Below are positions 12,930 to 27,372 of a stretch of 64,000 bases of DNA, in pieces. The notes beneath the pieces are model-generated. The model had not been told where the DNA came from, made no database searches, and saw only the letters and a program-made list of their open reading frames with translations. The stretch covers positions 1 to 64,000 of the forward strand of contig NZ_JAUTAN010000001.1 in the NCBI RefSeq assembly GCF_030818655.1, read 5' to 3'. The position numbers and the translations under genes were made by a program. Origin of the DNA: Nocardioides zeae. Its GTDB lineage: Bacteria; Actinomycetota; Actinomycetes; Propionibacteriales; Nocardioidaceae. Position 1 is the first letter of the stretch, and every line of letters begins with the position of its first letter.

Positions 12930-13673
12930 TCAGAGGCGGCGGAGGACCGCCGTCACCTTGCCGAGGATGGTGGCGTGGGTGCCGTCGATCGGGTCGTACG
13001 CCTCGTTGTGGGGGAGGAGCCAGACCTGCCCGTTGCGGCGCTGGAACGTCTTCACGGTCGCCTCGCCGTCGATCATCGCGGCGACGATCTCGCCGTTCTC
13101 GGCCGTCGGCTGCTGGCGGACCACCACGTAGTCGCCGTCGCAGATCGCCGCGTCGATCATCGAGTCGCCGGACACCTCCAGCATGTAGAGCGTGCCGTCC
13201 CCGACGAGCTGCTGCGGGAGGGGGAAGACCTCCTCGACCCGCTGCTCCGCGAGGATCGGGCCGCCGGCCGCGATCCGTCCGACGACCGGCACGTACGTCG
13301 CGGCGGGGCGCGCCTCGCCGATGTCGGTCTCGTCGATGACGGACTCGTCCGCGCTGGAGAGCGCCGCGCGCTCGACCTCGAGGCCGTGCCCGACCACCTG
13401 GATCGCCCGGGGGCGGTTGGGGTCGCGACGGAGGTAACCCTTCTCCTCCAGCGCCTTGAGCTGGTGGGCGACCGAGGACGAGCTGGTGAGGCCGACCTGC
13501 TCGCCGATCTCGCGCATGCTCGGCGGGTAGCCCCGCTCGTCGAGCGCGGTCGTGATGACGGCGAGCACGCGCGCCTGGCGCGGCGTCAGGCGCGCCTGCC
13601 CCGCACCGGGCTGCGGCACCGCCGACACGTCCGTCACCCCTGCGTCGTCGCCCGGGTCCTTGGTCGCCGCCAT
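12930..13673 (-). CDS. lexA: SOS repressor LexA
   Basis: 247 residues. The N-terminal winged HTH covers about 25-95 ('[11 protein letters not shown]', '[15 protein letters not shown]'). The C-terminal S24 protease domain has the Ala-Gly self-cleavage site in 'GRIAAGGP' (about 138), the catalytic Ser in '[10 protein letters not shown]' (about 172) and the catalytic Lys in 'EATVKTF' (about 209). The start is placed at ATG 13673 because GAAAGAAGGAC lies 5 nt upstream; a longer in-frame reading to 13772 adds unconserved sequence. LexA represses DNA-damage genes and is cleaved with RecA help. Its own promoter overlaps a SOS box. Divergent from the LysM division-suppressor gene, as in Mycobacterium (lexA/Rv2719c). 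Confidence 0.96.
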
Positions 13674-13770
13674 GTCCGTCCTTCTTTCCGCGCCCTCGGA
13701 CGCTTCGCCGCTCGGTCGACTGCTCGGTGCCCCCGCGCCGTGCTGCAGGCGGGACACCGTCGCGGACCGC

Positions 13771-13812
13771 ACGCTAGTCGTCGGACCCGTGCGGATTCAA
13801 ACATCTGTTCGA
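13771..13812 (-). promoter_or_regulatory. lexA promoter with SOS box 1
   Basis: On the minus strand TTGAAT, 18 nt and TAGCGT form a promoter (13771-13800). The 16-bp element TCAAACATCTGTTCGA at 13797-13812 matches the actinobacterial SOS box TCGAAC-N4-GTTCGA with one mismatch and overlaps the -35, which fits autorepression. Confidence 0.65.
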
Positions 13813-15767: not shown

Positions 15768-15938
15768 CACCATTCGTCCGTCGGCCTCGCGCCGACATCC
15801 GCACGCACCACAGCACGCAGACCAGCAATACATGTCGCCGCGAGAGCGTTGTACGGGGGAGTCCCCGGCCCTCGTGCGCGACCAGCACGACCGAACGACA
15901 GCCAGTAGTGACCCAGCAGCGACGATCGAGGAGATTTC

Positions 15939-18839
15939 ATGACGGAGACGGTGAGCGGCCCGGGCGCAGCAGGCGCTGAGGGTCGTTCGGGCTCGGCCGG
16001 CCTCACCCTCACCCCGGTGTTCAGCACCCCGGGTGTGCACCCCTACGACGAGATCACCTGGGAGCGTCGCGACGTCGTCCAGACGAACTGGAAGACGGGT
16101 GCCACCGTCTTCGAGCAGCGCGGCGTCGAGTTCCCGGACTTCTGGTCCGTCAACGCCTCGACCATCGTCACGTCGAAGTACTTCCGCGGCGCGCTCGGCA
16201 CCGACGCGCGCGAGTGGAGCCTCAAGCAGCTCGTCGACCGCGTCGTGAAGACGTACGTCGCGGCCGGCGTCGAGCACGGCTACTTCGCCGACGAGGCGGC
16301 CGCCCAGGTCTTCGAGCACGAGCTCACCTGGCTGCTGGTCCACCAGTACTTCTCGTTCAACTCGCCCGTGTGGTTCAACGTGGGCACGTCGAGCCCCCAG
16401 CAGGTCTCCGCCTGCTTCATCCTGTCGGTCGACGACTCGATGGACTCGATCCTGAACTGGTACAAGGAGGAGGGCTTCATCTTCAAGGGCGGCTCCGGTG
16501 CCGGCCTGAACCTCTCCCGCATCCGCTCCAGCAAGGAGCTGCTCTCCTCGGGCGGCACCGCGAGCGGTCCCGTCTCCTTCATGCGCGGCGCCGACGCATC
16601 GGCGGGCACCATCAAGTCGGGCGGCGCCACGCGTCGTGCGGCCAAGATGGTCGTCCTCGACGTCGACCACCCGGACATCGAGGAGTTCGTCGCGACGAAG
16701 GCGCGCGAGGAGGACAAGATCCGCGCGCTGCGAGACGCCGGCTTCGACATGGACCTCGGCGGCGACGACATCACCTCGGTGCAGTACCAGAACGCCAACA
16801 ACTCGGTCCGCGTCTCCGACGAGTTCATGCGCGCCGTCGAGGACGGCACGGAGTTCGGTCTCCGCGCCCGCCAGACCGGTGAGGTCATCGAGACGGTCGA
16901 CGCCCGCGAGCTCTTCCACAAGATCGCGAAGGCCGCCTGGGAGTGCGCCGACCCGGGCCTGCAGTACGACGACACGATCAACGACTGGCACACCAACCCC
17001 GAGACGGGTCGCATCACTGCGTCCAACCCGTGCTCGGAGTACATGTCGCTCGACAACTCGTCCTGCAACCTGGCGTCGCTCAACCTGCTGAAGTTCCTCA
17101 AGGACGACGACACGTTCGACGCCGACCTGTTCGCCAAGGCCGTCGAGATCATCATCACCGCGATGGACATCTCGATCTGCTTCGCCGACTTCCCGACGGA
17201 GCCCATCGGCGAGACGACGCGCAACTACCGCCAGCTGGGCATCGGCTACGCCAACCTCGGCGCGCTGCTGATGGCCATGGGCCTCGGCTACGACTCCGAC
17301 GGTGGCCGCGCCATGGCCGGCACCATCACCTCGCTGATGACCGGCACGTCGTACCGCCGCTCGGCCGAGCTCGCCGCGATCGTGGGCCCCTACAACGGCT
17401 ACGCCCGCAACGCCGAGGCGCACCAGCGCGTCATGCGCAAGCACCAGGCCGCCAACGACGCCGTGCGCACGATGCACAGCAACGACACGGCCGTGCACCG
17501 CCTCGCCACCAAGGAGTGGGCGAAGGTCGTCGAGCTGGGCAAGGTCAACGGCTTCCGCAACGCGCAGGCCTCCGTGCTCGCCCCCACCGGCACCATCGGC
17601 TTCATGATGGACTGCGACACCACCGGCATCGAGCCCGACTTCTCGCTCGTGAAGTTCAAGAAGCTCGTCGGCGGCGGCTCGATGCAGATCGTCAACCAGA
17701 CGATCCCGCGCGCGCTGAAGAAGCTGGGCTACCAGCCGGAGCAGGTCGAGGCCATCGTCGACTACATCGCCGAGCACGGCCACGTCATCGACGCCCCCGG
17801 CCTGCGCCAGGAGCACTACGAGGTGTTCGACACCGCGATGGGTGCCCGCTCGCTCAAGCCCATGGGCCACGTCCGCATGATGGCCGCGGCGCAGCCGTTC
17901 CTCTCGGGCGCGATCAGCAAGACGGTCAACCTGCCCGAGTCGGCCACGGTCGAGGAGATCGAGGACGTCTACCTGCAGTCGTGGAAGCTGGGCCTCAAGG
18001 CCACGGCGATCTACCGCGACAACTGCAAGGTGGGCCAGCCCCTCTCCGACGGTGGCGGCAAGGCGAAGAAGGACGCGGCCGACGCCGCCGAGGCTGCCGA
18101 GGCGGCCGAGGTCGTGGAGAAGGTCGTCGAGAAGATCGTCTACGCTCCGACCCGCAAGCGCCTCCCGAAGTCGCGTGTTTCCCGCACGACGTCGTTCACG
18201 GTCGGCGGCGCGGAGGGCTACATGACCTCCGGCGCCCACGAGGACGGCGAGCTCGGCGAGATCTTCCTCAAGCTCGGAAAGCAGGGCTCGACCCTGGCCG
18301 GCGTGATGGACGCGTTCTCGATCGCGGTGTCGATCGGTCTGCAGTACGGCGTGCCGCTCGAGACCTACGTCTCGAAGTTCACCAACCTGCGCTTCGAGCC
18401 GGCCGGTCTGACCGACGACCCGGACGTCCGGATGAGCCAGTCGATCATGGACTACATCTTCCGTCGCCTGGCGCTGGACTACCTGCCGTTCGACGAGCGG
18501 GCGGGCCTCGGCATCTACTCGGCCGAGGAGCGCCAGCGTCACCTCGAGACGGGCTCCTACGAGCCGGTCGAGGAGACGGGCTCGGCGGCCGAGCTGCTCG
18601 AGGCGCCGACCGTGGAGATCACGCCGCTGCCCGAGGTCGCGGTGGAGGAGAAGGCTCCGTCGGCCGAGTCCGGCGCCAAGCCCGCCCCGAAGGAGGCCCA
18701 CACCTCCGCGGAGCTGCTCGAGAAGATCACGGGCACGGCGGTCGACAGCCCGCTCTGCTTCACCTGCGGCACCAAGATGCGCCCGGCTGGTTCGTGCTAC
18801 GTCTGCGAGGGCTGCGGCTCGACCAGCGGCTGCAGCTGA
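15939..18839 (+). CDS. nrdJ: Vitamin B12-dependent (class II) ribonucleoside-diphosphate reductase NrdJ
   Basis: 966 residues, the usual size of actinobacterial class II RNR. Active-site features include the 'SACFILSVDDSMDS' cysteine near residue 155, 'NPCSEYMSLDN' near 363 and 'APTGTIGFMMDCD' near 550. The C-terminal ~30 residues form a cysteine-rich tail ('CFTCGTKMRPAGSCYVCEGC', then 'SGCS') that carries the redox-active pair and a zinc-ribbon-like fold. A Lys/Ala-rich linker lies at 700-730. The enzyme makes deoxyribonucleotides using adenosylcobalamin and works with or without oxygen. Regulation by the adjacent nrdR is expected. The upstream gap shows no recognisable cobalamin riboswitch. 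Confidence 0.96.
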   Translation: MTETVSGPGAAGAEGRSGSAGLTLTPVFSTPGVHPYDEITWERRDVVQTNWKTGATVFEQRGVEFPDFWSVNASTIVTSKYFRGALGTDAREWSLKQLVDRVVKTYVAAGVEHGYFADEAAAQVFEHELTWLLVHQYFSFNSPVWFNVGTSSPQQVSACFILSVDDSMDSILNWYKEEGFIFKGGSGAGLNLSRIRSSKELLSSGGTASGPVSFMRGADASAGTIKSGGATRRAAKMVVLDVDHPDIEEFVATKAREEDKIRALRDAGFDMDLGGDDITSVQYQNANNSVRVSDEFMRAVEDGTEFGLRARQTGEVIETVDARELFHKIAKAAWECADPGLQYDDTINDWHTNPETGRITASNPCSEYMSLDNSSCNLASLNLLKFLKDDDTFDADLFAKAVEIIITAMDISICFADFPTEPIGETTRNYRQLGIGYANLGALLMAMGLGYDSDGGRAMAGTITSLMTGTSYRRSAELAAIVGPYNGYARNAEAHQRVMRKHQAANDAVRTMHSNDTAVHRLATKEWAKVVELGKVNGFRNAQASVLAPTGTIGFMMDCDTTGIEPDFSLVKFKKLVGGGSMQIVNQTIPRALKKLGYQPEQVEAIVDYIAEHGHVIDAPGLRQEHYEVFDTAMGARSLKPMGHVRMMAAAQPFLSGAISKTVNLPESATVEEIEDVYLQSWKLGLKATAIYRDNCKVGQPLSDGGGKAKKDAADAAEAAEAAEVVEKVVEKIVYAPTRKRLPKSRVSRTTSFTVGGAEGYMTSGAHEDGELGEIFLKLGKQGSTLAGVMDAFSIAVSIGLQYGVPLETYVSKFTNLRFEPAGLTDDPDVRMSQSIMDYIFRRLALDYLPFDERAGLGIYSAEERQRHLETGSYEPVEETGSAAELLEAPTVEITPLPEVAVEEKAPSAESGAKPAPKEAHTSAELLEKITGTAVDSPLCFTCGTKMRPAGSCYVCEGCGSTSGCS

Positions 18840-19761: not shown

Positions 19762-20940
19762 TCACCCCGGCTGCGCCGTCACGATCCCTTCCGCCGCGGC
19801 CCACGCGGTGATGTCCCGCCGCTCGATCGCGGCCGCGATGAGGTCCGGGAACGCCTCGGGCGTGCACGCGAACGTGGGCACGCCCAGCCCGGCGAGCGCG
19901 GAGGCGTGGTCCTCGTCGTACGCCGGTGCCCCGTCGTCGCTCAGCGCGAGCAGCGCGACCACGGTGACGCCCGACGCAACGAGACGCGCGCAGCGCGCGA
20001 GCATCTCCTCGGCGATGCCGCCCTCGAACAGGTCGCTCAGCAGCACGAGCACGGTGTCGGTGGGCCGCTCGATGCGGCTCTCGCAGTAGGCCAGCGCGCG
20101 GTTGATGTCCGTGCCGCCGCCGAGCTGCACCCCGAAGAGCACGTCGACCGGGTCGTCCATGTCGTCGGTGAGGTCGACGACCTCGGTGTCGAAGACGACC
20201 AACCGGGTCGCGACGGAGCGCAGCGAGGCGAGGACGGCGCCGTACACGGACGCGTAGACGACCGAGGGGCCCATCGACCCCGACTGGTCGACGCACAGCA
20301 CGATCTCGCGCTCGAGCTGGTGGGCCCGGCGCGCGTGGCCGACGAGGCGCTCGGGCACGACGGTGCGGTGCTCGGGCAGGTAGTGCTGGAGGTTCGCGGC
20401 GATGGTGCGCCTCCAGTCGATGTCGGCCGGCCGCGGACGGCGGGTGCGGGCGGCGCGGTCGAGCGCACCGGTCACGGCCTGCACGGTGCGCGCGCGGATC
20501 CGCTCCTCGATCTCGTCGACGACGGTCCGCACGACCCGGCGGGCCGTCTGCTTCGAGTGCTCGGGGATGACGCCCCGCAGCCCCATCAGCGTGGTCACGA
20601 GGTGCACGTCCGGCTGCACCGCCTCCATCAGCTCCGGCTCCGCCAGCAGCTCGCGGAGGCCCAGCCGCTCCATGGCGTCGACCTGGAGCACCTGCACGAC
20701 GGAGCTCGGGAAGTAGGTGCGGATGTCGCCCAACCAGCGGGCGACCCGCGGCGACGAACCACCGAGCCCCCCGGTCCGCGAGCGGGAGCCGGAGCGCTCG
20801 CCGTACAACGCCTCCAGCGCCTCGTCCCGCTTCACGTCGTCGGCGGAGAGCTCGACACCGTGGCCGTCGTTCCCCAGCACCTCGTCGGACGGCGCCCCGA
20901 GGACCAACCGCCACCGCGTGCGGGCGTCCCGCTCGCTCAT
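19762..20940 (-). CDS. vWA domain protein (MIDAS) of the SWIM/MoxR cluster
   Basis: 392 residues. An N-terminal helical region (1-200) with basic segments is followed by a C-terminal von Willebrand factor A domain (about 205-375). The MIDAS is complete: 'CVDQSGSMGPS' (DxSxS), Thr in 'LGGGTDINRA' and Asp in 'LLSDLFEGG', so metal-dependent partner binding is expected. Its ATG overlaps the TGA of the DUF5682 gene (ATGA). MoxR ATPases usually act with a vWA protein on a client, so this is the probable partner of the AAA+ protein in the same operon. It resembles E. coli YehP in arrangement. Client unknown. Confidence 0.85.
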   Translation of the reverse strand: MSERDARTRWRLVLGAPSDEVLGNDGHGVELSADDVKRDEALEALYGERSGSRSRTGGLGGSSPRVARWLGDIRTYFPSSVVQVLQVDAMERLGLRELLAEPELMEAVQPDVHLVTTLMGLRGVIPEHSKQTARRVVRTVVDEIEERIRARTVQAVTGALDRAARTRRPRPADIDWRRTIAANLQHYLPEHRTVVPERLVGHARRAHQLEREIVLCVDQSGSMGPSVVYASVYGAVLASLRSVATRLVVFDTEVVDLTDDMDDPVDVLFGVQLGGGTDINRALAYCESRIERPTDTVLVLLSDLFEGGIAEEMLARCARLVASGVTVVALLALSDDGAPAYDEDHASALAGLGVPTFACTPEAFPDLIAAAIERRDITAWAAAEGIVTAQPG

Positions 20941-23203
20941 GCGACCGCACCTCCCACCTCGGGAGCACCCAACAACCGCGCCACCCCGGCGAGCACCGGC
21001 GCGGCCCCGTCGACGTCGAGCACGAGGCCACCGGACGCGCCGCCGGACCGCGGCCCCCGCCCCACCCCGCGCGCCACCGCGCGTCGCTCGGCGGACGAGA
21101 ACCGCGCGAAGGTGCGACGCAGCAGCGGCAGCAGGTCGTCGAAGACGGCGTCGGCGGTGCCGGCCATCCAGTCGTCGAGGATCCGCAGCAGGTCGTCGTC
21201 GTGGAGCAGCACGGCCGCGTCGCCGGCGAGGAAGCCGTCGAGCCAGGCCGCCGCCGCAGGCGCCGGGGCGGCGGGGGACAACCGGCGGGCCATCCGCTCG
21301 GCCGCGGTGGCCGGCACGACCAGTCCCGCGTCGAGCAGCAACCGGTTGGCCCGTCCCACCACCGAGCCGTGCAGCGCCTCGTCGGCCGCCAACCCGCCGA
21401 GCGCCTCCTGCCACGGCTGGCGCAGCGCCTCGTCGTCCAGCAGCGTCACGCCCTCGTCGCAGGTCTCGATCGCGCGGCGGGCGCGCGCGGCCGCGTCGTC
21501 GTCGAGGCTCGCGCAGGCGGCCCGCAGCCCGACGGACGCCCGCACGACCACGGTGCCGAGCAGGTCGGCGACGCGGGTCGTGTCGGCGCCGCGCACGTCG
21601 CCGTACCGCCGCGTCCGCGCCAGCGGCCCCACGCTCTCCGCGAGCGCCAGCGCGTCGTGCTGGTGGGTCGTGCGCTCGGCCAGTGCGTCGACCACGGCGG
21701 CCAGCCCCGCGGGCAGGTCGGCGAGCAGGCAGGCCTCGACGAGGTCGCTCAGCGCGGGGAGGTCGGGAGCCACGGCGGCGTCCTCGGCGACCGTGCGGGC
21801 GGCGGCGTCGGCGACCGTCGTGCCCCGCAGGCCCGCGTCGACGAGGGCGACGGCGAAGCCCGGGTCCCACTGCAGCCGCCAGGCCTCCTTGAAGGTGCCC
21901 GTCGTGCGGCCGCGTCGATCGGCGTGCCCCAGGCGACGCCGAGCAGGCGCAGCCGGTGCAGCAGCGCGGAGCGGGCGCGGCCGTTGGGCGTGCGCAGGTC
22001 GAGCACGGTCTCCGTCACCGACGCGCTCGGCTTGAGCCGCACGGCGCGCTGCTGCCGCGCGAGGTCCGCGGCCACCGGCGCCATCGGCACGTGCTCGGGG
22101 ACCTCGCCCAGCCGCTGGCCCACGACCACCTGCTCCTCGACGAGCTGCAACGGCACGGCCGAGCCCTCGCACAGCACCGTCAGCACCGCGTCCTGCAGCT
22201 CCGCGAGCCCCGCCGACGGTCGCCCGCGCATGACCGCCAGGTCATCGGCCAGCCGCGTGGCCTCCACCAGCGACGCGGGCGGGGCGTCGATCCCGGCGGT
22301 CCGCAACGCCCGGGCGACGGCCACCATCCACGCCGGCACCACGCCGTCCCGGTCGCGGTCGGCCCAGGTGAAGAGGTGGTCGTACCAGCCCGGCGAGCCG
22401 ACGCCCGCGCCGTACCCGCTCGTGAACTGCAGCCGCCCGTGCGTCCACGGCACCCAGGTGACCGCCACCTTGGTGCGCGGCAGGCGCGCGAGGAGCCGGT
22501 TGTCATGGGCGGCCGCCGGGAAGTCGGGCAGGTGCAGCGCCGGGGCGTGGAACGCACCGCACACGAACGCCACCCGCTCGTGGCCCTCCTTGAACGCCGC
22601 CCGCACGACACGACGCATCGCCGCCTCCCGCCGCGCGTTCTCGAGGTCCTCGTCCGCGTGCTCGGAACGGTGGGCGTCGCGCACCTCCGTCACCGCCTCG
22701 CGCAGCAGCGCGAACCGGTCGAGCACGCTCACCGTGGCGTCGGGCAGCTCGACGGCGTCCTCCCACCACCGCTCGGGGTCGTCGTACCCGGCCGTGCGGG
22801 CGAGCGTCCCGATCACGTCGGGGTACGACGCGGGCCGGGCGTCCTCCGGGGCCCCCTCGACATCAACAGGGGCCAGCTGGTGGACGGCGGGCAGGTCCGC
22901 GAACCGCACCGGTACGCCGCGGGCGACCGCCCAGCGCAGCGCGACCCACTCGGGGGAGAACGCGGCGAACGGGTAGAACGACGCCCGGCGCGGGTCGTCC
23001 GCGGCGTACACGAGCGCCGCCACGGGCGGCACGAGCCCGGGGTCGGCGACGTGGGCCACCAGCGGGTCGAGCTCCGGGCAGCCCTCGACCACGACGAGGT
23101 CGGGCTGCAGCTCCTCCAGGGCCGCCCGCACGGCGCGGGCCGAGCCCGGGCCGTGGTGGCGGATGCCGAGGGGGACGAGGACGCTCGTGGTCACGGCAGT
23201 CAC
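20937..23203 (-). pseudogene. DUF5682 (TraB/TIKI-like) protein, reading frame broken by a 1-nt deletion
   Basis: The gene reads in two frames that join at 21906-21913 (GCGGCCGC). Restoring one base there (GCGGGCCGC) links 'LLGVAWGTPIDA' directly to 'GRTTGTFKEAWRLQWDPG' and gives about 755 residues. The N-terminus has 'GIRHHGPGSARAV' and 'VVVEGCPEL', and 'VCGAFHAPAL' follows near residue 220. A His/Glu start and a GAxH motif recall the TraB/TIKI/ChaN-like putative metallohydrolase fold (inference). The C-terminal half is helical. GTG 23203 lies 11 nt after the MoxR stop. The total length of 2267 nt is one short of a multiple of three. Either a sequencing error or a true lesion; no slippery heptamer is present. 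Confidence 0.75.
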
Positions 23204-23214
23204 GGGAGCAGCGC

Positions 23215-24342
23215 TCAGCCCAGCTCGCGGCACGCGCGGTAGAGGTCCGCCCACGCGGGGCGGTCGCGGACGACGGTCTCGAGGTACTCCTGCCACACGA
23301 TCGCGTCCGCCACCGGGTCCTTCACCACGGCGCCGACGAGGCCCGCGGCGACGTCGGCGGCGCGCACGACCCCGTCACCGAAGTGCGCCGCCAGCGACAG
23401 CCCGTTGGTCATCACCGAGATCGCCTCGGCGGTCGACAGCGTGGCCGACGGCGACTTCAGGCTCGTGCGCCGGTCGAGCGTCGAGCCCGAGCGCAGCTCC
23501 CGGAACACCGTGACGACGCGCTCGATCTCGCTCGGCGCCCCCTCGGTGCCACCGAGGTCGGCGGGCAGGTCGAGCGAGCGGCCCAGCGCCGACACCCGGC
23601 TGCGCACGATCTCGACCTCCTGCTCGACGCTGTCGGGCAGCGGCAGCACGACGGTGTTGAACCGTCGCTTGAGCGCCGACGACAGGTCGTTGACGCCCTT
23701 GTCGCGGTTGTTGGCGGTGGCGATCACGTTGAAGCCCGGCCGGGCCTGCACCTCGGTGTCGAGCTCGGGCACCGGCAGGGTCTTCTCCGACAGGATCGAG
23801 ATGAGCGCGTCCTGGACGTCGGCCGGGATGCGGGTCAGCTCCTCGATGCGCACCAGCGCGCCGGTGCGCATCGCGCGCATGACCGGGCTGGGCACCAGCG
23901 CCGCCTCGGACGGCCCCTCGGCGAGCAGCCGGGCGTAGTTCCACCCGTAGCGCAGCGCCTCCTCCGCCGTGCCCGCCGTGCCCTGCACGACGAGCGTCGA
24001 GGTGCCGCTGATCGCCGCCGCCAGGTGCTCGCCGACCCACGTCTTCGCCGTGCCGGGCACGCCGAGCAGCAGCAGCGCCCGGTCGGTCGCCAGCGAGGCC
24101 ACCGCGATCTCGACGAGGCGCCGCGACCCGACGTACTTCGGGCTGATGACCGTCCCGTCCGGCAGCTCGCCGCCGAGCAGGTAGGTCGTCACCGCCCCCG
24201 GCGACAGCTGCCAGCTCGGCGGGCGCGCCCGGCCCGACGCGGCGTCGTGGTCCCGCAGGGCGGCGAGCTCGTCGGCGTACGCCTGCTCGGCGTGGGGCCG
24301 CAGCACCTCGGGGGTCTCGGGCGTGCCAGGGGTGGTCGTCAT
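23215..24342 (-). CDS. MoxR-type AAA+ ATPase of the SWIM/vWA cluster
   Basis: 375 residues. Walker A 'GVPGTAKTW' lies near 100, Walker B-like 'GALVRIEEL' near 165, sensor 1 'VIATANNRD' near 208 and the Arg-finger region 'ALKRRF' near 222; a helical lid completes the C-terminus. MoxR ATPases are chaperone-like remodelers that pair with vWA proteins to insert cofactors or activate clients. The ATG overlaps the TGA of the DUF5691 gene (ATGA), so translation is coupled. It is comparable to E. coli YehL by gene context. The two neighbouring genes carry frameshifts, but this one is intact. Confidence 0.9.
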   Translation of the reverse strand: MTTTPGTPETPEVLRPHAEQAYADELAALRDHDAASGRARPPSWQLSPGAVTTYLLGGELPDGTVISPKYVGSRRLVEIAVASLATDRALLLLGVPGTAKTWVGEHLAAAISGTSTLVVQGTAGTAEEALRYGWNYARLLAEGPSEAALVPSPVMRAMRTGALVRIEELTRIPADVQDALISILSEKTLPVPELDTEVQARPGFNVIATANNRDKGVNDLSSALKRRFNTVVLPLPDSVEQEVEIVRSRVSALGRSLDLPADLGGTEGAPSEIERVVTVFRELRSGSTLDRRTSLKSPSATLSTAEAISVMTNGLSLAAHFGDGVVRAADVAAGLVGAVVKDPVADAIVWQEYLETVVRDRPAWADLYRACRELG

Positions 24343-25878
24343 CGCAGGGCCTCGCTGATCGTGCGTCGGAAGGACAGGAGCTGCAGGGCGGTCGAGAGGG
24401 GTCGACCGGTGGTCTCGGGCAGGTCGGTGCGCACCAGGTCGGTGAGCCGGTCGAGCGTCGCGGGCGGGGCGTCCACCAGCGCGTCGCGCAGGTGGTGGAA
24501 CACCTCGGTCGGCAGCACGAGCCGCGGCGGCGGCACGCGGTGCAGCGCCTCGACCGCCTCGCGGCCCAGGCCGGGGTCGGCGGGCACGGGGAGGGCGGCG
24601 AGCAGGTCGCGGAGGTCCCGCAGGTCACCGGCTCCACGGCAGCGGGCGAGACCGGACCCGAGGTGCTGCGTGCGTTCCTCGAGGGGCAGCACCGACAGCA
24701 GCCCCGAGGGGCGTCCCTCCACGGCGATCACCGCCCGCGCCCAGACGGCGTCGCGGCGCAGCAGCACCGCCCGTCGCACGGCGTCGCGGAGGGGGTCGGG
24801 GAGACGCTGGTACGTCGCGGCCTCGTCCACCCCGGACCCCCGGGTCAGCACGGTGAGCGGGGCGCCGGTCACCAACGTGGCGAGCCACCAGTCGTGGCGG
24901 GACGTGCCGCGCGGGGGAGGGGTGAGCCCGTCGCGCACGCCGGCGTCGTCGGGGTCGGGCGGGGTGGCGAGGTCGAGGCGCCGGCCGAGGATCCCGCTCC
25001 GGGGAGAGCAGCGGCGCGAGCCGGTCCGCCATCCGCTGGGCCCGCCGTGAGGTGGGCAGCCCGTCGAGCAGGTGCTGCGCGAGACCCCGCACCTTCACGG
25101 ACCGGTCGTCGAGCGCCCGCTCGAGCAGGGGGTCGTCGGTGTCGGCGAGCGCCGTGCCGAGTGCCTCGAGGTGCTGGGTGCGCTCGGTGACCGGGTCGTT
25201 CGCCCAGGTGGAGGCGACGAGGTCGGCCGCCAGCGCCCGGTCGGCGGGGTCGTCCGAGGCGCGGAGGTCGAGGAGCAGCCCGAGGCGCGCCGGCGCCGGG
25301 AGGTGGGGCCACGCGGCCGGGTCGGGCCGGTCGTCGGGAGCTCCGGCCGCGGGCGCCGCGCCCCGGTCGTCCCTCAGCACGGCGCCCCAGCCCGGGTGCA
25401 GCCCGGCGAGCCAGCGTCCGCGCGCGTCGAGCACGGGCCGCAGCGGCGCCCGGAGCGCCGGTGCGCTCCGGGCACGCTCCAGCAGCACCGGCAGGAGGTC
25501 GTGGGGCACGCGGACCCCGGCCGCCGCCGCGCGCTCCAGCCAGTGGGCGACCAGCAGGTCGCGCTCCGCGGCCGGCACCGGCGCGGGCCGTGCGTGGAGC
25601 AGCTCGAGCAGCTGCCGGGCGCGCGGGGGCGGCGCGGCGAGGGTGTCGGCAGGCGCGGGAGCGGGGGCGTCGGCGGGAGCCGCGGGAGCGTCGGGCGCTC
25701 CCACCGACCGCAGCGCCGCCAGCACGGTCGCGGCGTCGAGGAGGCGGGTGCCGGAGTCGGCCGTGGGGCTCGGACCGAGCCCCGTGAGCACGTCCGGCGG
25801 CTCCGGCACCGCCCGACGTCCGCTGCCGAGGATCGCGGCCGCGACGACGCCGTCGGCCCAGTCCTCGATCGTGCTCAC
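24339..25878 (-). pseudogene. DUF5691 family protein, reading frame broken by a 1-nt insertion
   Basis: The gene starts at GTG 25878, overlapping the SWIM stop (GTGA), and ends in the ATGA overlap with the MoxR gene. The first frame runs to 'MADRLAPLLSPE'; the rest continues in the +1 frame as 'SGILGRRLDLATPP'. Removing one G of the run at 25001-25004 joins them and gives about 512 residues; the span of 1540 nt is one over a multiple of three. The protein is almost wholly helical with Leu/Ala/Arg-rich repeats ('LLLDLRASDDPADRAL', 'LDDRSVKVRGLAQHLL') like HEAT-type repeats, and an Ala/Pro linker near 75. Function unknown; it is always reported with SWIM and MoxR partners as far as I recall. 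Confidence 0.75.
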
Positions 25879-27275
25879 AGTCCCACCACCCCGTCGCCCG
25901 TGCCCACGGCCAGCACCCGGAGCACGCCGTCCTGCAGCTCGCCGAACAGGTCGGCGGGGTGGCCGCCGGTGCGGGCGAGCAGCGACCAGACGGCGCCCGT
26001 GGCCTCCTCCTCGTCGGCCCCGGTCGCGACCCCCGGCACCGTGCGGCCCGCCGGGTCGACGACGGTCACCGCGCCGGTGGTGTCGGCGTCCGCGCCCGGG
26101 AGGACCCGCGCGTCGGCGACGACGACGGGCACGCGCCGTACGAAGGGGTTGGCGGCCAACGCCGCCGTGCGGCGCGCGCGGGCCGCGGCGAGGTCGCCGC
26201 CCCCGGGGAGCCGGTCGAGGTCGCCGGCGGCCACGGGCTCGGCGACGAGGAGGGCACGGCGGGGGTCGTGACCGGGGTAGAGCGCGAGGGTGGCCTCGAG
26301 CCGGCTCCCGACGGTGCGGGCCACGGGCACGGGGGCGCCCCGCGCCGCGAAGTCGAGCACCTGCACGACGTGGCCGGAGCGCTCGCCGTGGAGCCAGGTG
26401 CGCTGCTCGAGCAGGCCCCCGTCGGTCGAGCGGTGGGCACCGAGCACGGCCCACACGTCGGTGACGGTCTCGCCGGCGCGCACCTCGTCGGTCGCCCAGG
26501 CCCAGCCGACCACGGCGCGGAGGTCGGCCGCGCTCGCCGCGTCGAGGTCGCCGCGGCGCCGCCAGGCGCGCACGAGCAGCCACCAGCGGCCGAGGACGTC
26601 GACCGTGTGCTCGGCCCAGTCGGCGCGGTGGCGGACGGTGCGCCCGAGGGCGCGCACCTCCTCCGCGACGCCGGGCAACTGGGCGTCGACGAGCCGCGCG
26701 GCCGCGGACTCCCACCAGGTCAGGTCGCGCTGCCGGGCGGCGGCGATCCCCGTGCGGGCGAGGTCGGTGAGCCAGACCGCGAGCTCCTCGACGCCCGCGT
26801 CCATCCGCGCGAGGCGCTCGTCGCGCCGCTTCGCCGCGGCCTCGGCCCGCGCTGCCTCGACGGCCGGGTCGACGGGATCCTGGGACCCCGCCTCGGCCGC
26901 CGCGTGGGACGCCGCCCGCTCCGCCCGCTGGCGCGCCCACGCGGCGGCCTCGTCCGGGGCGTCGGCGCCGGGCTCCAGGTCGCCCGCCGACCAGCGCATC
27001 AGCAGCGCCAGGGCGTGCTTGCAGGGGAACTTCCGGCTCGGGCAGGAGCACCGGTAGGCCGGACCGGCCAGGTCGACGCTCACCTGGTAGGGCGCCGTGC
27101 CCGAGCCCTGGCACTTGCCCCAGACGAGCGTGGCGCTGACGCCGCAGTCCGACCACGACCCCGGGGCGGTCAGCCGGCGCGCCGCGGCCAGCGACGCCGC
27201 GTCGGGCGCAGCGCCGCGCACACGCTCGAGCGACCAGCGCTCGGCGGGGGCGTCCGCGGCCTCGGGGGTGGTCAT
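25875..27275 (-). CDS. SWIM zinc-finger protein, first gene of the MoxR/vWA operon
   Basis: 466 residues. The SWIM motif CxCx(n)CxH is present as 'YRCSCPSRKFPCKHAL' (about residues 71-86), preceded by 'GKCQGSGTAPYQVSVDL', the usual beta strands. SWIM domains bind zinc and typically DNA or protein. A charged Ala/Arg/Glu-rich segment (100-165) may be coiled-coil. The remainder is mixed alpha/beta with several Trp residues. A CAGGAT hexamer ends 8 nt before the ATG on the minus strand and may be its -10. The gene opens a five-gene unit (SWIM, DUF5691, MoxR, DUF5682, vWA) with overlapping or nearly adjacent starts and stops. Comparable by context to E. coli YehQ. Confidence 0.85.
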   Translation of the reverse strand: MTTPEAADAPAERWSLERVRGAAPDAASLAAARRLTAPGSWSDCGVSATLVWGKCQGSGTAPYQVSVDLAGPAYRCSCPSRKFPCKHALALLMRWSAGDLEPGADAPDEAAAWARQRAERAASHAAAEAGSQDPVDPAVEAARAEAAAKRRDERLARMDAGVEELAVWLTDLARTGIAAARQRDLTWWESAAARLVDAQLPGVAEEVRALGRTVRHRADWAEHTVDVLGRWWLLVRAWRRRGDLDAASAADLRAVVGWAWATDEVRAGETVTDVWAVLGAHRSTDGGLLEQRTWLHGERSGHVVQVLDFAARGAPVPVARTVGSRLEATLALYPGHDPRRALLVAEPVAAGDLDRLPGGGDLAAARARRTAALAANPFVRRVPVVVADARVLPGADADTTGAVTVVDPAGRTVPGVATGADEEEATGAVWSLLARTGGHPADLFGELQDGVLRVLAVGTGDGVVGL

Positions 27276-27372
27276 CGCCCGCCATCCTGTCGCATCCCAC
27301 CGACACCTGCGGGGTACCGGGGCCGGTCCCCACCCGTCCACACCACGGGCGACCCCCACGAACGGAGCAGAG

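Follow-up and report, generated by a model that had tools for sequence, protein, structure and literature searches.

What is the task of the five-gene operon that runs from 27275 to 19762 on the minus strand of a 64-kb stretch of Nocardioides zeae DNA (henceforth the window)? In order, its genes encode a SWIM zinc-finger protein, a DUF5691 protein, a MoxR AAA+ ATPase, a DUF5682 protein and a vWA protein, and an original prediction made from the letters alone had read them as a possible conflict or quality-control machine. We lean towards a different whole, an AAA+ remodelling machine that is induced by DNA damage, binds nucleic acid through one subunit and possibly includes a TIKI-type hydrolase. 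At the level of sequence, the basis for this proposal is a conserved gene set, an intact MoxR and an intact vWA protein with its metal-ion-dependent adhesion site (MIDAS), the occurrence in relatives of DUF5682 and vWA as one fused protein, and a promoter motif of the PafBC type.

Pfam profile searches confirmed the five predicted families and their order. The first gene (25875–27275, minus strand, as are all that follow) specifies a SWIM protein of 466 aa (PF04434, 30 bits; finger residues CSCPSRKFPCKH), to which a structure model adds a helical middle and a likely C-terminal tandem OB fold. It is followed by the DUF5691 gene (24339–25878; PF18944, 198 + 76 bits), the gene for a MoxR ATPase of 375 aa with its motifs intact (23215–24342; PF07728, AAA_5, 132.8 bits), the DUF5682 gene (20937–23203; PF18934, 495.6 + 260.9 bits), whose product combines a TraB/TIKI-like N-terminal domain with helical repeats, and the gene for a CoxE-type vWA protein with a complete MIDAS (19762–20940; PF05762, VWA_CoxE, 180.6 bits). 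The junctions are as tight as had been described, with a GTGA overlap at 25875–25878, ATGA overlaps at 24339–24342 and 20937–20940 and an 11-nt gap at 23204–23214, and third-position GC backs the coding nature of all five genes. The impression of an intact set held for families and order but not for DUF5691 and DUF5682, each of which is split over two reading frames (see below).

Is such a cluster more than a local arrangement? A DUF5682 pattern search over one genome per species matched at least 592 stretches, at least 557 of them encoding a relative. The best 80 of these (at least) 557, a set biased towards the query type and spanning Actinomycetota, cyanobacteria, one gammaproteobacterium and one Bacteroidia metagenome-assembled genome (MAG), were combined with eight loci from relatives, a second operon of the same genome (L004) and the Escherichia coli locus (L005) to give 90 loci. 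Of the 90, 68 hold the complete set of five, in several phyla, so the cluster is not a matter of chance. In 50 loci they stand in order on a single strand, and in 18 (Streptomyces, plus one Streptantibioticus) DUF5691-SWIM is divergent from MoxR-DUF5682-vWA. Eleven loci were labelled as having SWIM, MoxR, DUF5682 and vWA alone, and a DUF5691 stretch is nonetheless present in ten of them; the remaining 11 are L004, L005 and contigs ending near the operon.

A less biased test came from 246 sampled Actinomycetota genomes, where DUF5682 was found in 19 and DUF5691 over the cut-off in 17. Every one of these 17 also holds DUF5682, at most 6 kb away (printed coordinates compared by hand), which bears out the supposed co-occurrence of the genes outside this strain. 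The two DUF5682 genomes lacking a DUF5691 match over the cut-off carry other architectures, described below (G233, types C/D; G153, type B), and three more DUF5691 matches, all sub-cut-off, lie in genomes without DUF5682. Presence is patchy, with 8 carriers among 29 other near relatives and 2 among 18 further members of the genus. DUF5682 operons as a whole span actinobacteria, E. coli, Deinococcus, cyanobacteria and Bacteroidota. The same gene order appears on named plasmids of Deinococcus taeanensis and Rhizobium; in a Methylosinus plasmid copy the vWA gene is not listed. A Hymenobacter plasmid has one 1009-aa protein at the position of SWIM and DUF5691, with Pfam DUF5691 at 499–1000 and no Pfam SWIM finger in its first half; judged by length, it may be a SWIM-DUF5691 fusion.

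How the operon is controlled offers a hint of its role. The PafBC/RecA-NDp motif, published as TGTCGG or TGTCAG-N10-TA-N3-T, marks promoters of the LexA-independent response to DNA damage (PMC8151990); PafBC and RecA-NDp are treated in PMC6789036, and RecA-NDp is placed upstream of recA and SCO6735 in S. coelicolor (PMC5087735). Alignment of the Streptomyces divergent intergenic region showed two opposed conserved blocks with TTGTCAGTG. We scanned from −150 to +40 around the SWIM start in 83 upstream regions (78 actinobacterial, 5 others), taking the published form TGTCRG-N10-TANNNT as the fair test, given that the patterns accepting C or G at the −10 had been broadened once the data were inspected. 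The published form was present at 42 of the 78 actinobacterial loci of the window's type (type A) versus none of the 5 others, against a chance expectation of 0.0036 per window from its density in the same DNA, or 0.28 over the 78 loci; 25 slid control windows gave a mean of 0.001 and a maximum of 0.015. Counted by genus, with the eight relatives left out and one label being a MAG, 17 of 30 labels (41 of 70 loci) were positive. The widened −10 raised the count to 52 of 78, at a density of 0.0098, and at divergent Streptomyces-type promoters TGTCRGTG-N8-YANNNT was found on the SWIM side in 20 of 22 and on the MoxR side in 22 of 22. With the wider pattern, the end of the −10 lies 6–8 nt from the SWIM start codon in 43 of 54 cases, resembling leaderless genes. 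A PafBC pattern with spacing 6 was absent from all 83 regions; the spacing of 8 came from the Streptomyces alignment and was confirmed by the published form.

The window itself carries a variant, TGTCGGTG-N8-CANNNT (27284–27305, minus strand, by pattern match), 8 nt upstream of the SWIM start codon, its −10 reading CAGGAT, a CANNNT form of TANNNT. It is the single match to TGTCRGTG-N8-YANNNT on both strands of the 64 kb, in which the wider TGTC[AG]G-N10-[TCG]ANNNT has 3 matches. The whole genome has 26 matches to the former pattern versus 0 for its reversed control, and 12 of the 26 sit 6–8 nt ahead of a possible start codon. Downstream proteins were scanned for 20 sites, the other six being the window operon and five with weak open reading frames (ORFs). 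Six of the 20 are repair or replication proteins (RecA, UvrB, an HhH-GPD glycosylase, a PD-(D/E)XK nuclease, a DnaQ-like exonuclease with GIY-YIG, and DnaB), and others include RelA/SpoT, a DinB-superfamily mycothiol transferase, a D12 DNA adenine methylase and a HEPN protein; EamA and ABC transporters, a response regulator, a PIG-L deacetylase and an aldehyde dehydrogenase are among those with no evident DNA role, and two of the 20 matched no family. The genome also has two Pup-ligase-family and two WYL genes within 8 kb (1.516–1.524 Mb), an arrangement that matches expectation for pafA-pafB-pafC and that, in our reading, suggests those names. The motif, its spacing and the recA and uvrB sites in the same genome resemble the PafBC (RecA-NDp) regulon of mycobacteria and Streptomyces, and regulation of the operon by DNA damage through PafBC is, judging from these promoters, very probable in actinobacteria.

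Some promoters fall outside this pattern. Two same-genus relatives have no motif match, nor do the type A loci L114–L117. SOS control was rejected, GAAC-N4-GTTC being absent from all 83 upstream regions; in 12 non-actinobacterial loci, the 500 nt ahead of the first operon gene contained neither SOS nor radiation-desiccation response motif (RDRM)-type patterns, and L123 has one GTTC-N7-GTTC pair 700 nt upstream of the operon. An initial search reported in PMC9380542 found the mycobacterial PafBC motif seemingly not conserved in S. venezuelae, a remark with which the motif matches at these promoters disagree. The words MoxR and SWIM are absent from PMC9380542 and PMC8151990 (main text of each), and our literature search, largely outside subscription papers, returned no paper joining SWIM, MoxR and DNA damage as whole words and none naming DUF5682 or DUF5691. 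The PafBC/RecA-NDp motif before this operon is a new observation. As separate observations, further predicted PafBC-type promoters in the N. zeae genome precede genes for a SAV_6107-like HEPN protein, RelA/SpoT, an AAA_21/ABC-type ATPase, a D12 methylase and a PIG-L deacetylase (L129, L132, L137, L147, L151), and in a same-genus relative (L023:14839, minus strand) such a motif stands 6 nt before a gene resembling polA by eye.

Does the core occur in other settings? Four architectures could be told apart. Type A is the SWIM-DUF5691-MoxR-DUF5682-vWA order of the window, and type B, WGR/DUF4132-MoxR-DUF5682-vWA-SWIM, comprises E. coli yehI-L-M-P-Q, L004, L107 and Iodobacter, with a reshuffled form in Sinorhizobium. 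Type C (L105, L109, L112) has DUF4132, then a protein of about 1600 aa that matches no Pfam family, MoxR and a one-frame DUF5682:vWA fusion; on a Streptomyces plasmid (L125) the large protein is annotated as a 'DNA-binding protein'. Type D is vWA-MoxR with a divergent DUF5682 (L106, L108, L110, L113), and in three cases one or two extra genes precede vWA (L106:14215-16103, L108:12863-14778, L113:3593-5602); the leading genes of these three operons matched no Pfam family. The motif recurs here too, 55 nt upstream of WGR-DUF4132 in the type B locus L107, 22 nt upstream of DUF4132 in the type C locus L112, and, in L106, L108 and L113, before the first extra gene, some 2 kb upstream of vWA. It was not found at L004, L109, L110 and L111, where some operon starts may fall outside the fetched DNA. 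Of the 246 genomes, 12 have DUF4132 over the cut-off, and DUF5682 is present in 10 of the 12. We also noted a separate DUF4132 gene (L107:582-2867, minus strand) divergent from the type B operon; a PafBC-type motif of its own lies 6 nt ahead of its start. Given the DUF5682:vWA fusion and the constant MoxR-DUF5682-vWA core, the five proteins probably form a single physical complex.

The parallel to E. coli yehL/yehM/yehP/yehQ drawn in the original prediction proved sound by Pfam and tblastn, its closest counterpart being the second operon rather than the window operon. YehL is one of seven MoxR subfamilies (PMC3893208), and the content of a YehL-type system is present: a YehL-kind MoxR, YehM (DUF5682), YehP (vWA) and a SWIM protein, with MoxR, DUF5682 and vWA in the same order as in yehI-yehL-yehM-yehP-yehQ. 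The window proteins are 41% (YehL) and 38% (YehP) identical to those of E. coli, whereas those of the second operon reach 53% and 46%. In the yeh operon, by contrast, DUF4132/WGR genes replace DUF5691 and SWIM comes last; the DUF5691 profile had no match in the E. coli control locus, and neither did the window SWIM protein by tblastn. The second operon (contig 1, about 3,702,000–3,710,600; L004:3011-11579) contains a split WGR/DUF4132 gene, MoxR, DUF5682, vWA and a terminal 172-residue YehQ-like stretch.

The broken frames raise the possibility that the system is decaying in N. zeae and thus no longer works there, which would be compatible with every functional reading. The pieces were searched separately, with frames left unmended: PF18944 positions 2–280 and 264–491 of DUF5691 fall in different frames, as do PF18934 positions 1–411 and 409–727 of DUF5682, one frame change in each. 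In the second operon the WGR-DUF4132 gene is broken too, its L107 counterpart being one open frame of 1221 aa, and in eight relatives of the same genus or order a single open frame spans the DUF5682 profile. Open frames are nevertheless kept in MoxR, vWA and SWIM, the promoter motif is retained, and the GC bias at third positions continues past the breaks, as expected for recent breaks or assembly errors. To judge from the sequence, the breaks in DUF5691 and DUF5682 may be either sequencing error or real, recent decay; loss of the working system in this organism is possible but doubtful.

What could the proteins do? The predicted classic pair of MoxR and vWA stands, with the motifs intact in both. 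In MoxR, Walker A (GVPGTAKT), Walker B (EE), sensor 1 (ATAN) and RRF are conserved in 99–100% of 88 aligned proteins, and the vWA MIDAS pieces DQSGSM, GGTDI and VLLSDLFE are kept in 85, 87 and 85 of 87. Each of 73 SWIM proteins has a complete CxCxnCxH. The structure model of the SWIM protein (predicted local distance difference test, pLDDT, 92) has RPA, SSB and HIN among its structural matches; its C-terminus is likely a tandem OB fold, and through finger and OB folds together the protein would bind nucleic acid.

DUF5682 looks like a TraB/TIKI-type domain on a helical-repeat scaffold, in agreement with the look ascribed to it earlier. Structural comparison suggested fold similarity to TraB/TIKI for residues 1–213, with GxxH/Glu motifs, and H10, H11, E34, E174 and H200 are invariant in 13 of 13 sequences from types A–D. 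TIKI proteins have a 2His/2Glu active-site set (PMC6254334), to which, in our reading, the conservation suggests the DUF5682 set is equivalent. Unlike members of the TraB/TIKI superfamily, DUF5682 is joined to helical repeats, tied to an AAA+ pair and without a significant sequence match: hhalign gave a probability of 0.9% (P 0.061), though aligned at the expected motif, the Pfam search did not match PF01963 (TraB), PDB sequence searches yielded nothing convincing, and the structural match list, filled by helical repeats, had no TraB, ChaN or EreA entry by name. Whether DUF5682 is a hydrolase is close to an even question, and we tend slightly towards no.

Could the operon then serve in conflict or phage defence as a MoxR-vWA ternary system whose effector is DUF5682, as first proposed? 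Ternary systems with VMAP, iSTAND, FtsH or beta-propeller proteins, as described in PMC7159879, likewise combine MoxR, a vWA co-chaperone and a helical-region protein in conserved order; here, however, the third core protein is the TraB/TIKI-like DUF5682, and the main text of PMC7159879 has no occurrence of 'yeh', 'SWIM', 'TIKI' or 'TraB'. Their hallmarks (WxhapG, VMAP-C, vWA effector fusions) were not found in the window system. WxhapG, searched with our own pattern, was absent from all 88 MoxR proteins; for the PsWRxa motif the window MoxR reads PSWQLS, and a looser PSW/GW-LSP pattern fits 36 of 88, possibly a distant echo. Pfam found no VMAP-C domain in the window proteins and no effector domain C-terminal to vWA, a 392-aa protein with only VWA_CoxE and VWA_2 above the cut-off. 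DUF5691 does match VMAP-M0, at 20.9 bits against a cut-off of 25.9, and PADLOC returned one weak IetA match, to MoxR (E 0.007, 13.8 bits), and nothing else. On signature motifs and domain content, membership among the ternary conflict systems was rejected.

Neighbourhood and mobility tell a similar story. No family of non-core ORFs occurs in more than 22 of 88 loci, the commonest being confined to the Streptomyces group, for which annotation of five cluster representatives gave SucC- and SucD-type CoA ligases, an M23 peptidase, a UvrD-type helicase and PurH. The Streptomyces operon holds a fixed chromosomal place amid housekeeping genes rather than one in a defence island. None of 69 viral candidates carries the system, phage records gave 1 weak match in 50,697, and plasmid records 20 and 36 matches of 72,556 for two queries, some of them chromosome-sized; on these counts a mobile or viral origin was rejected. 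The conflict idea can still draw on the weak VMAP-M0 match of DUF5691, on plasmid neighbours (restriction-modification genes in Iodobacter, a PDDEXK nuclease in Hymenobacter), on the patchy distribution and on the thought that control by DNA damage would suit a response to invaders too. Set against the strong conservation of MoxR and vWA, the housekeeping surroundings and the missing hallmarks, we regard it as rather improbable.

In its working, the system resembles by analogy the MoxR-vWA chaperone pair (PMC3893208), not the VMAP ternary system (PMC7159879). Is it then an enzyme-maturation chaperone like CoxD/CoxE, NorQ/NorD or RavA/ViaA, which would insert cofactors or activate metalloenzymes with its other proteins as client adaptors? 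MoxR proteins of known role belong to this type, according to PMC3893208, the vWA protein falls in the VWA_CoxE family, and the DUF4132/WGR family includes MolR, which was once connected with the use of molybdate by E. coli (as cited in PMC8533742 and PMC4245954). But moeA and moeB are given as unchanged in PMC8533742, no neighbour family exceeds the 22 of 88 loci counted above, and a PafBC motif is hard to square with a housekeeping cofactor enzyme, so maturation is unlikely. Quality control, the other half of the original prediction, can still be accommodated, although the new evidence favours a DNA-damage response. A second damage regulator touches the DUF4132/WGR family in Deinococcus radiodurans, where depletion of DdrO strongly raises drA0166 (DUF4132) and dr2173 (WGR) (PMC8533742); both genes count here as family members, not as parts of a demonstrated MoxR operon. 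Two further genes lie close to the operon in the window: at a distance of 6 kb a lexA-like gene (12930–13796, minus strand), and at 1 kb one for a class II ribonucleotide reductase (15912–18839, plus strand).

The damage-induced remodelling machine that we favour would work as follows. Upon DNA damage, actinobacteria would switch on a multi-protein AAA+ machine; its SWIM subunit (WGR in the E. coli type) would recruit it to single-stranded or broken DNA, where a MoxR hexamer, coupled through the vWA MIDAS, would unfold or remodel a protein, and DUF5682 would cut, de-modify or pass on that client. In a narrower version the machine would clear proteins stuck on damaged DNA: SWIM/OB or WGR would find single-stranded or broken DNA, MoxR-vWA would unfold the protein bound or crosslinked there, and DUF5682 would act as a TIKI-type protease. 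Such a system would correspond to the SPRTN/p97 pathway for DNA-protein crosslinks and would be shared by bacteria as far apart as actinobacteria and E. coli, a combination that we hold to be quite improbable. The broader proposal places an anonymous operon in the predicted actinobacterial DNA-damage regulon and so makes its role directly testable; if true, it would add one more AAA+ machine to the bacterial damage response.

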